64,000 nt of DNA, from positions 1 to 64,000 of the forward strand of contig CACWXP010000004.1 in the NCBI GenBank assembly GCA_902764875.1, read 5' to 3'. The notes under the pieces were generated by a model. It had not been told where the DNA came from. It did no database searches and was given only the letters and a program-made list of their open reading frames with translations. Made by a program: the position numbers and the translations under genes. This document shows positions 10,386 to 58,868 of this stretch, one piece after another (within the stretch, counting starts at the first letter, position 1; each line of letters begins with the position of its first letter). Source of the DNA: an uncultured Eubacteriales bacterium (lineage in GTDB: Bacteria > Bacillota > Clostridia > Christensenellales > Aristaeellaceae).

Positions 10386-10988
10386 TTATTCCGCGCTGCC
10401 TTTGGCGGCGGGGGATTCGGGTTCCGGGGCGGACGCGGGCTCTTCGCTCACGCGCAGAATCGGCACGGAACCGACGGAAGCGGCATAGGCGCTGTGGAAA
10501 GTGGTGGCGGCAGGATTGCTCTCCGGCATACTGTCCGCCTGTTCCTTCAGGTCGTTCAGAATCTCCTGGTTGGAAGGAGCAGCTTCCGGAGCCGCGGTCG
10601 CCTTCTCGACGATCTGGCGGGCCATCTGCTCGGCCTCCGCCTGAGTCTTCGGCGCGTTCTGCGCCCGGGCCTTGCTGATCTCGGTCTGGATGGACTTCAC
10701 CGCGCTGACAGCGCCGTTTTTCACGTTCTGGGCGGCCTTGCGGATCCGTTCCTCAAGTTCCTTGTCGTCCATGTCTTCGCTCTCAAAGCGGAACTGATAG
10801 CCCATCAGCAGGGCCGCGACGGTGCCGATAATCGTTACATGCGGCGAAAAGATCAGCGCGAAAAGGCCGAAAATGCTCGATACGTTGATGATCGGCTTTC
10901 CCTTCTTGTCCACTTTCACACGGAAATGGTACAGCTTCTGCAGGAAGCTCTTCGCCTTTTCGCCCGCGTTCGGATTGTTGTTCTCCAT
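10386..10988 (-). CDS. DUF4342-like domain protein
   Basis: A 200-residue protein. Residues 20-75 (FRVKVDKKGKPIINVSSIFG, then a hydrophobic stretch FALIFSPHVTIIGTVAALLM) resemble DUF4342, a family with a short beta segment and a hydrophobic hairpin, often in proteins with UBA/TS-N-like domains. Residues 80-200 are charged, helix-rich and Ala/Pro/Glu-rich, probably a partly disordered tail. The start is set by GAGGAGGAG eight bases upstream. Function is unknown. It sits alone between a small secreted protein and glycogen synthase, with no clear operon. Confidence 0.6.
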   Translation of the reverse strand: MENNNPNAGEKAKSFLQKLYHFRVKVDKKGKPIINVSSIFGLFALIFSPHVTIIGTVAALLMGYQFRFESEDMDDKELEERIRKAAQNVKNGAVSAVKSIQTEISKARAQNAPKTQAEAEQMARQIVEKATAAPEAAPSNQEILNDLKEQADSMPESNPAATTFHSAYAASVGSVPILRVSEEPASAPEPESPAAKGSAE

Positions 10989-56208: not shown

Positions 56209-58506
56209 TTACAGCAGGGACCGCTGGATCTTCCCGCTCACGGTCTTGGGCAGTTCGTCCCGGAAAACAACAATTCGGGGATACTTGTAAGGCGCCGTGT
56301 GCTGCTTCACGTAATTCTGAATTTCCTTCTTCAGTTCCTCCGTGCCAACCGTGCCTTTGGTCAGCACAATGCTGGCCTTCACAACCTGTCCGCGCACCTC
56401 GTCCGGCGCCGCACTCACGCCGCATTCCAGCACGTACGGCAGTTCCATGATCACGCTTTCAATCTCGAACGGTCCGATCCGGTACCCGCTGCTCTTGATC
56501 ACGTCATCCGCCCGGCCCACGTACCAGTAGAATCCGTCCTCGTCGCACCAGGCAACGTCCCCCGTGTGATACCAGCCGTCGTGCATCACTTCCAGGGTCT
56601 TTTCCTCGTCCCGGTAGTACTGCTGGAACAGGCCGATCGGGATGCCCTTTGAAATGTCCACACAGATTTCGCCCGGCGTGCCGGCAGGAACGGGCTTGCC
56701 CTCCGCGTCCAGCAGCGCCACCCGGTAAATCGGCGCCACCTTGCCCATGGAGCCGAGCTTGTGGTCCGCCCCCGCCAGGTTGCCGATGATCATCGTACTT
56801 TCCGTCTGGCCGAAGCCTTCCATCACCTGCAGTCCCGTCTGCTTTTCGATCTGCCGGAAAACCTCCGGGTTCAGCGCTTCACCGGCGCTGGAAGCATGCG
56901 TCACCGAGCTCAGGTCGTATTTGCCCAGATCTTCCTTGATCAGCATCCGGTACATCGTGGGCGGCGCGCAGAAGGTCGTAATATGATACTTCGCGAACAG
57001 CGGCAGAATGTCCGCCGCGTCAAACCGGTCAAAGTCGTACACGAAGATGGCCGCCTCACACAGCCACTGGCCGTAAATTTTTCCCCATCCGGCTTTCGCC
57101 CATCCCGTGTCCGAAATGGTCAGATGCAGACCGTTCGGGTTCACGCAATGCCAGTATTTGGCCGTGTGCAGATGTCCCAGGGGGTGCTTGTAGCTGTGGG
57201 CTGCGATTTTGGGATAGCCCGTCGTGCCGCTGGTGAAGTACATCAGCATCAGGTCATCGCCGCAGGGCGTATCCTCCGTCCGCTTGTAGTGGGTGGAGTA
57301 CATCTGGTATTCCTCATCAAAGTTGTGCCAGCCTTCCCGCGTTCCGTTCACAATCAGCTTCAGCTCAAGCCCCGGCGCGTCCTTCGCCGCCAGATCCGCC
57401 TGGTGTGCCGTGTCGCCGTCCGCCGTGCAGATGATGGCCTTCACGCCCGCAGCGTTGAACCGGTATTCGAAGTCGTGCTCCTGCAGCTGGGCCACCGCCG
57501 GAATCGCGATGGCGCCGATCTTCTCCAGGCCCAGAATCGCAAACCAGAACTGATAGTGCCGCTTCAGCACCAGCATCACCCGGTCACCCTTTTTGATGCC
57601 CAGCGCCTTGAAATAGTTGGCGCAGCGGTTGGACGCGCGCTTCATGTCGTTGAAGGTAAACCGGTGTTCGTTCTTCTCCCGGTCCAGGTGCAGCATCGCC
57701 AGCTTGTTCGGCACTTCCTCCGCAATCGCGTCGATCACGTCGAAGGCAAAATTGAACTTCTCCGTGTTCTTGAAGTCGATCTTCACCGGGGTCCCGTTCT
57801 CGTCCTTCTCCACGTCCGCAAACCGGTGCCACACGCGGGTGCGTCCGTTCTCCGCCGGGAATTCCTGCAGGGCCGTGCCGGGCATGGCCTTTTCGGGGCT
57901 CAGCTCCGGAATCGGCGCCCCCGTCGGGTTCAGGACAATCGCGTAGAACAGGCAGTCTTTCCCGCCCACGGCGATCATGCCGTGAGGCGTGCCGGAATCG
58001 TAGTAGATGCTGTCCCCGGGGTTCAGCACGCTCACATGCTCGCCCACCTGCACCTTCAGCTGGCCCTCAATCACGATGTCGCATTCCTGTCCTTCGTGAG
58101 TGGTCAGCTTGATGTCTTCTTTTTCCGCCTCGGCGCTGTAGGCCGCCTGCACGTACAGGGGCTCCGCAATCCGGTTCCGGAAGGAAAACGCCATGTTGTA
58201 GTACACCATGTCGTGGGCTTCCTCAATCCGTTGTCCTTCGCCCTTGCGGGTCACCGTGAAGGAATTCAGGTTCGGGCTGGAACCTTCGATAATGTCCCCG
58301 ACGTCCACGCCGAACGCCAGCGCGCAGCGGTAAAGGAAAGCGAAGTTCAGATCGCTCCGCCCCATCTCGCAGTCAATATACTCCTGCTCGGTCACGCCGG
58401 TCTTGTTCGCCATCTCCGCGATGGTGAAGTTCTCAATCTCGCGAAGCTCGCGGATCCGGTGCGCCATCTCCTGAATCTTGTAATTCAATCCCGTCATCTG
58501 TGCCAT
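56209..58506 (-). CDS. XRE-cupin-acyl-CoA synthetase fusion
   Basis: A 765-residue three-part protein. Residues 10-68 are an XRE-type helix-turn-helix. Residues 110-190 are a cupin sensor (THEGQECDIVIEG, SIYYDSGTPHG). Residues 230-765 are an AMP-forming acyl-CoA ligase: MYFTSGTTGYPK is the ATP loop, YHTGDVAW and GRADDVIKSSGYRIGPFEIE are hinge motifs, and the catalytic Lys is in PKTVSGKIQRS. The enzyme should activate a carboxylic acid to its CoA ester, and may sense its substrate through the cupin. The ATG at 58506 has GGAGGAG 11 bases upstream; a GTG four codons earlier abuts it. A T-box leader precedes it, so expression should respond to an uncharged tRNA, apparently tRNA-Val. Confidence 0.9.
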   Translation of the reverse strand: MAQMTGLNYKIQEMAHRIRELREIENFTIAEMANKTGVTEQEYIDCEMGRSDLNFAFLYRCALAFGVDVGDIIEGSSPNLNSFTVTRKGEGQRIEEAHDMVYYNMAFSFRNRIAEPLYVQAAYSAEAEKEDIKLTTHEGQECDIVIEGQLKVQVGEHVSVLNPGDSIYYDSGTPHGMIAVGGKDCLFYAIVLNPTGAPIPELSPEKAMPGTALQEFPAENGRTRVWHRFADVEKDENGTPVKIDFKNTEKFNFAFDVIDAIAEEVPNKLAMLHLDREKNEHRFTFNDMKRASNRCANYFKALGIKKGDRVMLVLKRHYQFWFAILGLEKIGAIAIPAVAQLQEHDFEYRFNAAGVKAIICTADGDTAHQADLAAKDAPGLELKLIVNGTREGWHNFDEEYQMYSTHYKRTEDTPCGDDLMLMYFTSGTTGYPKIAAHSYKHPLGHLHTAKYWHCVNPNGLHLTISDTGWAKAGWGKIYGQWLCEAAIFVYDFDRFDAADILPLFAKYHITTFCAPPTMYRMLIKEDLGKYDLSSVTHASSAGEALNPEVFRQIEKQTGLQVMEGFGQTESTMIIGNLAGADHKLGSMGKVAPIYRVALLDAEGKPVPAGTPGEICVDISKGIPIGLFQQYYRDEEKTLEVMHDGWYHTGDVAWCDEDGFYWYVGRADDVIKSSGYRIGPFEIESVIMELPYVLECGVSAAPDEVRGQVVKASIVLTKGTVGTEELKKEIQNYVKQHTAPYKYPRIVVFRDELPKTVSGKIQRSLL

Positions 58507-58568
58507 GGTTTTTTGCACTCCTCCGAAGGGGTTTCATGGGGCGATCGGAATGCCCCCTGATTCTCCCG

Positions 58569-58832
58569 AAATAAAATGCCCGTCTCAAAATATAACTTTG
58601 AGACGAGCATGATCTCACACCCGCGGTACCACTCAAATTGCGGCGCGCACGCCGCCCCTTCAGGCTCTCTCTGAAGCCCTTTGCCCTCACGCGGCAGGAT
58701 CGGGAAGGTTCTACTTGCTTTGGCTTTCTTCCTTCCGGCTCCGGAGTGACAGCGAACGGATTCTTCCCGCGGCTCGCACCACCCGCCGCGTCTCTGTCAG
58801 CTGAATTCCGCTGCTCTCTCCTTCTCAGCCTT
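58569..58832 (-). ncRNA. T-box leader, specifier read as GUC (Val)
   Basis: A tRNA-sensing leader on the minus strand. Stem I base GGCT (58827-58830) pairs with AGCC just after the specifier loop. Its upper part shows CAGAGAC and GGGTGGTGCGAGCC, as in other T-boxes. The conserved box TGGTACCGCGG is at 58621-58631. The terminator (ATGCTCGTCTCAAA with TTTGAGACGGGCAT, then TTTATTT) is at 58569-58610. By alignment with the Geobacillus glyQ leader, where GGC precedes AUUCUUGAGC, the triplet before ACTCCGGAGC is GTC (58748-58750). UGGU fits a tRNA ending ACCA. The controlled gene begins 63 bases later. Confidence 0.93.
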
Positions 58833-58839
58833 TACCGGG

Positions 58840-58868
58840 AGTTTACGCTTTTCCCCGTTGCTTGTCAA
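58840..58868 (-). promoter_or_regulatory. Promoter of the T-box leader
   Basis: On the minus strand TTGACA (58868-58863), a 17-base spacer and TAAACT (58845-58840) place the transcript start near 58832, at the foot of Stem I. The rest of the gap to the esterase gene at 58904 is AT-rich with nothing else visible. Confidence 0.8.

Follow-up and report, generated by a model that had tools for sequence, protein, structure and literature searches.

We analyzed a 64,000-nucleotide stretch of DNA (hereafter the window) from contig CACWXP010000004.1 of an uncultured Eubacteriales bacterium (assembly GCA_902764875.1, the host genome), focusing on a leader RNA of the T-box family and the gene that it precedes. 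The gene encodes an acyl-coenzyme A (acyl-CoA) ligase fused to an N-terminal helix-turn-helix (HTH) domain and a cupin domain. The specifier codon of the leader reads valine, and the locus very probably serves the synthesis of valine from isobutyrate. The features of the locus are as follows.

56209..58518, minus strand: open reading frame (ORF) of the HTH-cupin-acyl-CoA ligase fusion, 769 amino acids counted from a GTG (Pfam and sequence)
58288..58458, minus strand: XRE-type HTH domain, residues 21-77 (Pfam PF12844, HTH_19, and PF01381, HTH_3)
57937..58116, minus strand: cupin domain, residues 135-194 (Pfam PF07883, Cupin_2)
56656..57726, minus strand: AMP-binding domain, residues 265-621 (Pfam PF00501; best solved relative 3etc, E 1.7e-179)
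56230..56466, minus strand: AMP-binding C-terminal domain, residues 685-763 (Pfam PF13193, AMP-binding_C)
57097..57099, minus strand: codon of Ala474, the residue that tracks the specifier (alignment and sequence)
58863..58868, minus strand: -35 box TTGACA of the leader promoter (sequence; kept in close valine copies)
58840..58845, minus strand: -10 box TAAACT, with a 17-nucleotide spacer to the -35 box (sequence; close copies)
58596..58835, minus strand: T-box leader RNA (RF00230, covariance-model alignment)
58748..58750, minus strand: specifier GUC (valine), followed by A and CUCC (RF00230 alignment)
58621..58633, minus strand: T-box sequence AGUGGUACCGCGG, whose UGGU is able to pair with the ACCA end of valine transfer RNA (tRNA-Val; model alignment and sequence)
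about 58568..58610, minus strand: terminator hairpin and T-run (hairpin in the predicted fold, T-run in the sequence)

The leader and its specifier codon

The RF00230 covariance model matched the leader over its full length (model positions 1-219; 58596-58835, minus strand) with 78.4 bits and an E value of 1.9e-17. This score lies under the Rfam gathering score of 93, and an Rfam scan at the default threshold misses the T-box. The gathering score is a curation threshold, which we did not take as the definition of a T-box RNA; all seven T-boxes of the host genome fall below it (57.6-85.8 bits), and 7 of the 10 leaders in six relatives' loci reach it or more, the best with 114.3 bits. The promoter is well kept: TTGACA was present in all 14 close valine copies (at least 88% identical, with the window's own counted and the T-box-less copy L101 excluded), and the -10 box in these copies is TAAACT or a near variant. 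A palindrome spans the promoter spacer in some of the close valine copies, and was not seen at the five isoleucine promoters compared. The ORF was counted from a GTG; the start codon is likely the ATG at 58506, which is preceded by GGAGG.

A preliminary description of this locus, made from the sequence alone, had recognized a complete T-box leader and the promoter TTGACA-17-TAAACT. Both stand, the leader on the full-model match (obtained by the RF00230 run that it had proposed, albeit below the gathering score), the T-box sequence and the terminator hairpin with its T-run, and the promoter at the place given. The description of the protein as an acyl-CoA ligase with N-terminal HTH and cupin domains is likewise confirmed by four Pfam domains within a single 769-residue ORF. 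The specifier had been left unread, and its reading is the key addition of the present analysis.

We read the specifier as the codon that lies one base before the end of the specifier loop in the RF00230 alignment, which gives GUC. The host genome encodes a tRNA-Val(GAC) with discriminator A73, fitting both the specifier GUC and the T-box UGGU. In the other six T-boxes of the host the same columns, read by eye, gave UGG (three), ACC (one), AUC (one) and CUG (one), and because these codons differ, the reading rule is not biased to valine. The three tryptophan-read T-boxes (L001, L002 and L003) combine the UGG specifier with UGGC.

Fusion genes and leaders in related genomes

The host genome encodes a second fusion on another contig, 61% identical to that of the window, with a T-box of its own that reads AUC (isoleucine). 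We obtained at least 80 loci from relatives, most of which belong to metagenome assemblies of ruminant or other gut material. Within the order, 139 of the 297 genomes searched matched with an E value of 1e-100 or lower, frequently with two copies and frequently in tandem. Matches below 300 bits were dropped, proteins with identical last 200 residues were counted once, and genes with less than 350 nucleotides upstream were excluded from T-box counts. All fusion counts were taken among the matches listed and are therefore lower bounds, since weaker fusions may be missing.

The 222 classified ORFs comprised 190 fusions, 23 unfused ligases and 9 at contig edges. A T-box core preceded 160 of the 186 fusion ORFs with sufficient upstream sequence (138 loci), which disposes of the possibility, raised with the preliminary description, that homologous fusions never have a T-box upstream. 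UGGU was found in 159 of these 160 cores. The specifiers read valine in 92, isoleucine in 65 and no other amino acid, with three leaders unreadable (L059, L168 and L189); seven of the 157 readings were made by eye, as the search pattern had missed five and misread two. Valine was specified by GUA (75), GUC (14) and GUG (3), and isoleucine by AUC throughout. The third base of the valine codon thus varies while the encoded amino acid stays constant, a pattern expected under selection for tRNA identity. A purine follows the specifier in 88 of the 90 pattern-read valine leaders. The neighboring frames were also compared, in a partly circular test that used only rows already labelled valine or isoleucine (150 of 157). 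In the valine leaders the -1 frame gave Cys (76), Gly (7), Ser (5) and Arg (2) and the +1 frame stop (74), Ser (13), Trp (2) and Cys (1); in the isoleucine leaders the -1 frame was mixed (His 35, Tyr 22, Asn 3) and the +1 frame was Ser in 60 of 60, uniformly because AUC forces Ser.

No T-box core was found before 26 of the 186 fusions. Half of these (13) are second genes lying 11-57 nucleotides behind another fusion, and five are first fusions whose preceding 600 nucleotides contain no T-box (L032, L045, L070, L081 and L134); in L032 a ligase-type ORF ends just upstream of the fusion. The remaining eight are taken up below.

Specificity residue and pathway genes

Residue 474 of the ligase was Ala in 92 of 92 valine-read fusions and Gly in 65 of 65 isoleucine-read fusions. 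In the full-length tree the valine and isoleucine clades are told apart at 85% or above by 14 positions, 12 of which fall within the first 200 residues; within the catalytic domain only 474 and 489 do so at the 85% level, and position 489 follows the specifier codon loosely. Gene conversion between tandem copies was considered as an explanation for the small number of separating residues and dropped as weakly supported; the isoleucine copy of the own locus was closest in 10 of 49 pairs, with a median ligase identity of 0.741 versus 0.722.

Among unfused ligases with a readable T-box, residue 474 agreed with the specifier in 8 of 9. Two genes outside the main grouping fit as well: L160, a valine-read fusion that lies outside the valine clade in the full-length tree and that the ligase tree places beside an isoleucine gene, and L175, from another genome of the order, an unfused ligase whose T-box reads valine (GUC), both have Ala474, and both leaders were confirmed as T-boxes by the covariance model. 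On the full-protein tree the specifier changed twice (shuffled mean 49.3, minimum 39, in 200 shuffles). The ligase-domain tree required eight specifier changes, with seven changes of residue 474 on the labelled tips and 13 on all tips. The number of independent codon-residue switches is therefore uncertain, as it depends on the alignment used.

Alignment with 3etc, the structure of MacS from Methanosarcina acetivorans, places residue 474 directly after the DxGW motif, where MacS has Gly, and Trp456, conserved in 222 of 222 proteins, against the pocket Trp of MacS. The residue after the corresponding GW of acetyl-CoA synthetase (Val310 in Salmonella and Ile312 in Methanothermobacter numbering) presumably lines the acyl pocket. 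According to the part of PMC10455477 available to us, the pocket Trp of MacS is Trp259 and the enzyme prefers 2-methylbutyrate; the accessible portion of PMC3477478 puts forward the hypothesis that replacing one of four acetate-pocket residues, among which Ile312 is named, extends the range to longer acids. Ala474 would make a smaller pocket than Gly, which would suit isobutyrate (four carbons) as against 2-methylbutyrate (five).

To describe the operons, we scanned 6.5 kb downstream, on the same strand, of 66 valine-type (Ala474) fusions outside the genus of the window with at least 3.9 kb of downstream sequence. A ferredoxin-dependent 2-oxoisovalerate oxidoreductase (VOR) was encoded in 48 of the 66 and a branched-chain aminotransferase (IlvE) in 44; the one operon IlvE checked passes NF009897. 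A P-loop ATPase (e.g., L131:7855-8523) was found in 49 of the 66, often between the ligase and VOR, and may load a cluster or cofactor into VOR; the one protein scanned had no NCBIfam match at E 1e-15. At the L175 locus the unfused valine ligase and a divergent isoleucine-read fusion flank a single VOR-aminotransferase operon.

In the host genome, matches to VOR ferredoxin, alpha, beta and gamma subunits lie together on another contig, and the VorB subfamily model accepts the alpha subunit (567 versus 399 bits). No match to IlvC or IlvD was found in the host genome, whose assembly is 93% complete, or in five genus mates, although the controls were found in 14 of 14 cases in both searches. Of the 297 genomes, 63 had an intact fusion among the matches listed, and 6 of these encode IlvC, as against 87 of the other 234 (Fisher p 1.2e-5), in a test that ignores phylogeny and in which the fusion genomes are at least 63, one (G100) having a partial match.

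Another T-box of the host genome (L005) precedes a LeuA-like gene and an 840-residue fusion of a putative TIM barrel, so named from our own reading of the sequence, with an acyl-CoA ligase.

L196 (host contig 11) 6685-10883, minus strand: LeuA-like gene and TIM-barrel-acyl-CoA-ligase fusion with a leucine T-box

The L005 specifier reads CUG (leucine), but the 3' half of this T-box is degenerate, and one frame shift would read threonine. The degeneracy concerns the antiterminator part of the leader (L196 near 10650-10750), with no normal T-box core and with UGGA in place of UGGU, and the close relatives L248 and L249 retain the normal form. In the 29 loci examined, a CUC or CUG specifier was read at 15 other places, in leaders that precede either the gene pair or just the ligase fusion (L198, L199, which is the same as L250, L201, L202, L248, L249, L251, L253, L257, L259, L260, L262, L263, L264 and L265), those of L198, L201, L202, L263 and L265 having been read by eye. 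In five places (L128/L254, L143, L255, L256 and L258) the pair lies behind VOR and aminotransferase genes and lacks a T-box immediately upstream; no readable leader was found in L252, L261 and L266, and L204, L205 and L215 lack the pair. The leucine-read locus is likely the leucine arm of the same system.

Proposed route, alternatives and known systems

We hold with considerable confidence that a valine-specific T-box precedes an isobutyrate-activating ligase that feeds reductive carboxylation to valine, and that the isoleucine paralogue does likewise for 2-methylbutyrate. The T-box, its specifier and tRNA match, the paralogue, the match of codon and residue, the operons of relatives, the lack of an IlvC or IlvD match and the presence of VOR were computed; we infer the substrate, the direction of the reaction, the read-through response and an aminotransferase in the host genome. 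When valine is short, uncharged tRNA-Val(GAC) would pair with the specifier GUC and the T-box UGGU, favoring the antiterminator so that the ligase is made. The ligase, an enzyme of the MacS-like type that forms adenosine monophosphate (AMP), would convert isobutyrate to isobutyryl-CoA, VOR working reductively would yield 2-oxoisovalerate, and a branched-chain aminotransferase would complete valine. The paralogue under the isoleucine T-box would open the same route from 2-methylbutyrate to isoleucine. The organism would then depend on branched volatile fatty acids in place of the IlvC/IlvD route.

Several points weigh against this reading. The assignment of a short branched acid as the substrate draws on homology and gene context, and the best NCBIfam match of the fusion, MbcS (NF047394), scores 438.7 bits and does not reach the curated cut-off of 850. 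VOR lay beside the fusion in none of the 10 close copies of the window's genus, and the host VOR beta and gamma subunits score below the curated cut-offs of their own models. The completeness of the host assembly limits the absence of IlvC and IlvD, six fusion genomes keep IlvC, and the limits of the contingency test given above belong here as well. On the side of the leaders, the unfused ligase L183 has a poor leader read by eye as valine, yet carries Gly474; the base after the specifier is C in 28 of the 60 pattern-read isoleucine leaders, unlike the usual T-box purine; and eight of the 186 fusions (L101, L105, L164, L165, L170, L171, L172 and L173) have neither a T-box nor visible cover, among them the same-genus copy L101, which is 91% identical to the window protein.

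Residues of the HTH fold are conserved (e.g., Arg21, Glu51, Gly53, Asp56, Phe59 and Phe61 in 25 of 25 aligned proteins). Unfused relatives carry an HTH-cupin protein as a separate neighbor of the ligase (L186, L187, L193 and L194), and a Parabacteroides distasonis record (NZ_OY725757.1, 223406-225556) holds cupin and AMP-binding genes in one match, 43.8% identical over residues 25-766; it is the only one among 137 plasmid records to cover 80% of the fusion query. These separate neighbors and the Parabacteroides record together suggest that the association of HTH-cupin and ligase is probably old. We lean towards the HTH-cupin part as a candidate sensing or assembly module on the enzyme.

A broader scheme is conceivable, if doubtful, in which each branched acid has its own ligase with a cognate T-box and with an HTH-cupin part that senses the acid, its acyl-CoA or the amino acid and acts on the enzyme (or on DNA), codon and pocket residue having changed together. 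Control would then have two layers, tRNA charging for synthesis and the ligand for activity. If this were true, the substrate of the enzyme could be read from the leader codon.

The preliminary description had proposed that the acyl-CoA made by the ligase is needed for amino-acid synthesis and that the protein also regulates DNA once its cupin binds the acid. The specifier, the operons found in relatives, the lack of IlvC/IlvD matches and the pocket residue all favor the first half. The second, in which the HTH-cupin part binds DNA and regulates genes, we consider unlikely. It draws on stand-alone XRE-cupin proteins, which the available part of PMC7901475 describes as local, highly specialised repressors, on the separate HTH-cupin matches adjoining unfused ligases, and on the fact that all but two of the 14 positions separating the clades fall within residues 1-200. 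The recognition helix speaks against it so far: helix 3 is acidic, with a mean net charge of -3.5 in valine and -3.0 in isoleucine proteins, and varies at its exposed positions. This is a weak argument: it comes without a control set of proven DNA binders, and helix 3 is likewise acidic (-2.75) in the four HTH-cupin proteins that stand apart beside unfused ligases. In addition, no operator common to the valine and isoleucine promoters was seen by eye.

An improbable alternative is that the isobutyryl-CoA made by the ligase primes the synthesis of branched-chain fatty acids, with the valine T-box merely reporting a shortage of precursor. MbcS, whose model is the best NCBIfam match (438.7 bits), is presumably a supplier of such primers in staphylococci, and we take it to be the short-chain acyl-CoA synthetase of Staphylococcus aureus. 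That synthetase supports branched-chain fatty acid synthesis, as stated in the accessible part of PMC10026030. However, the score lies far under the MbcS cut-off of 850, relatives carry VOR (48 of 66) and a branched-chain aminotransferase (44 of 66) downstream, and distinct valine and isoleucine copies, each with a cognate tRNA switch, suit amino-acid supply better. Primer supply may be a side role of the ligase.

VOR enzymes can also run oxidatively. A catabolic direction, in which VOR oxidises valine or isoleucine and the ligase handles the acids, is nevertheless very improbable, given that a T-box permits transcription with uncharged tRNA (according to the available part of PMC7778990), hence during a shortage of the amino acid and contrary to a catabolic operon, that an AMP-forming ligase spends adenosine triphosphate, and that the host genome has no IlvC or IlvD match.

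The amino-acid supply route that we prefer would have consequences beyond this locus. Isobutyrate is a waste acid of the gut, and rumen anaerobes are known to build valine from isobutyrate, isoleucine from 2-methylbutyrate and leucine from isovalerate. The loci described here provide candidate genes, a prediction of substrate from the leader codon and a specificity hypothesis that centers on one residue. They suggest that some anaerobes called auxotrophs for branched-chain amino acids (BCAA) on the basis of missing IlvC/IlvD may instead be supplied through branched acids, a point of relevance to metabolic modelling and to the use of isoacids as feed supplements.

In the literature covered, mostly non-subscription, we found no publication describing a T-box before the acid-activating ligase of this route and none naming the genes and regulation of the branched-acid route in these Clostridia, which is weak evidence of novelty. 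A word search of the main text of a T-box survey (PMC2494555) found nothing beginning with CoA or oxidoreductase, and the text of the TBDB paper (PMC7778990) contains none of CoA, ligase and oxidoreductase; the database itself, which was not searched, may list such leaders.

The known BCAA T-boxes (ilv-leu, leuA) belong to the same RNA family and share tRNA-dependent transcription antitermination and BCAA specifiers. The window leader differs from them in controlling the acid-activating ligase of a carboxylation route, and not IlvBCD/LeuABCD, synthetases or transporters. For the enzyme, the closest solved structure by sequence is MacS (PDB 3etc), which shares the pocket Trp and acts on a branched short acid; this match is limited to the ligase part (residues 252-766), and MacS is archaeal and has Gly where the window protein has Ala474. 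MbcS (NF047394), with a substrate class that we take to be the same as that proposed for the window ligase, is the best NCBIfam match, through a model that covers the ligase part only and with the window protein below its curated cut-off. XRE-cupin regulators, such as those of Pseudomonas, have the same pair of HTH and cupin domains, whereas in the window this pair is fused to an enzyme and its recognition helix is acidic and variable. Finally, the proposed pathway is the same as that of rumen fermentation, in which isobutyrate is a precursor of valine and 2-methylbutyrate of isoleucine, a route that the part of PMC7356843 available to us attributes to Allison and Peel 1971 and to Robinson and Allison; to this the present loci add candidate genes and their regulation.

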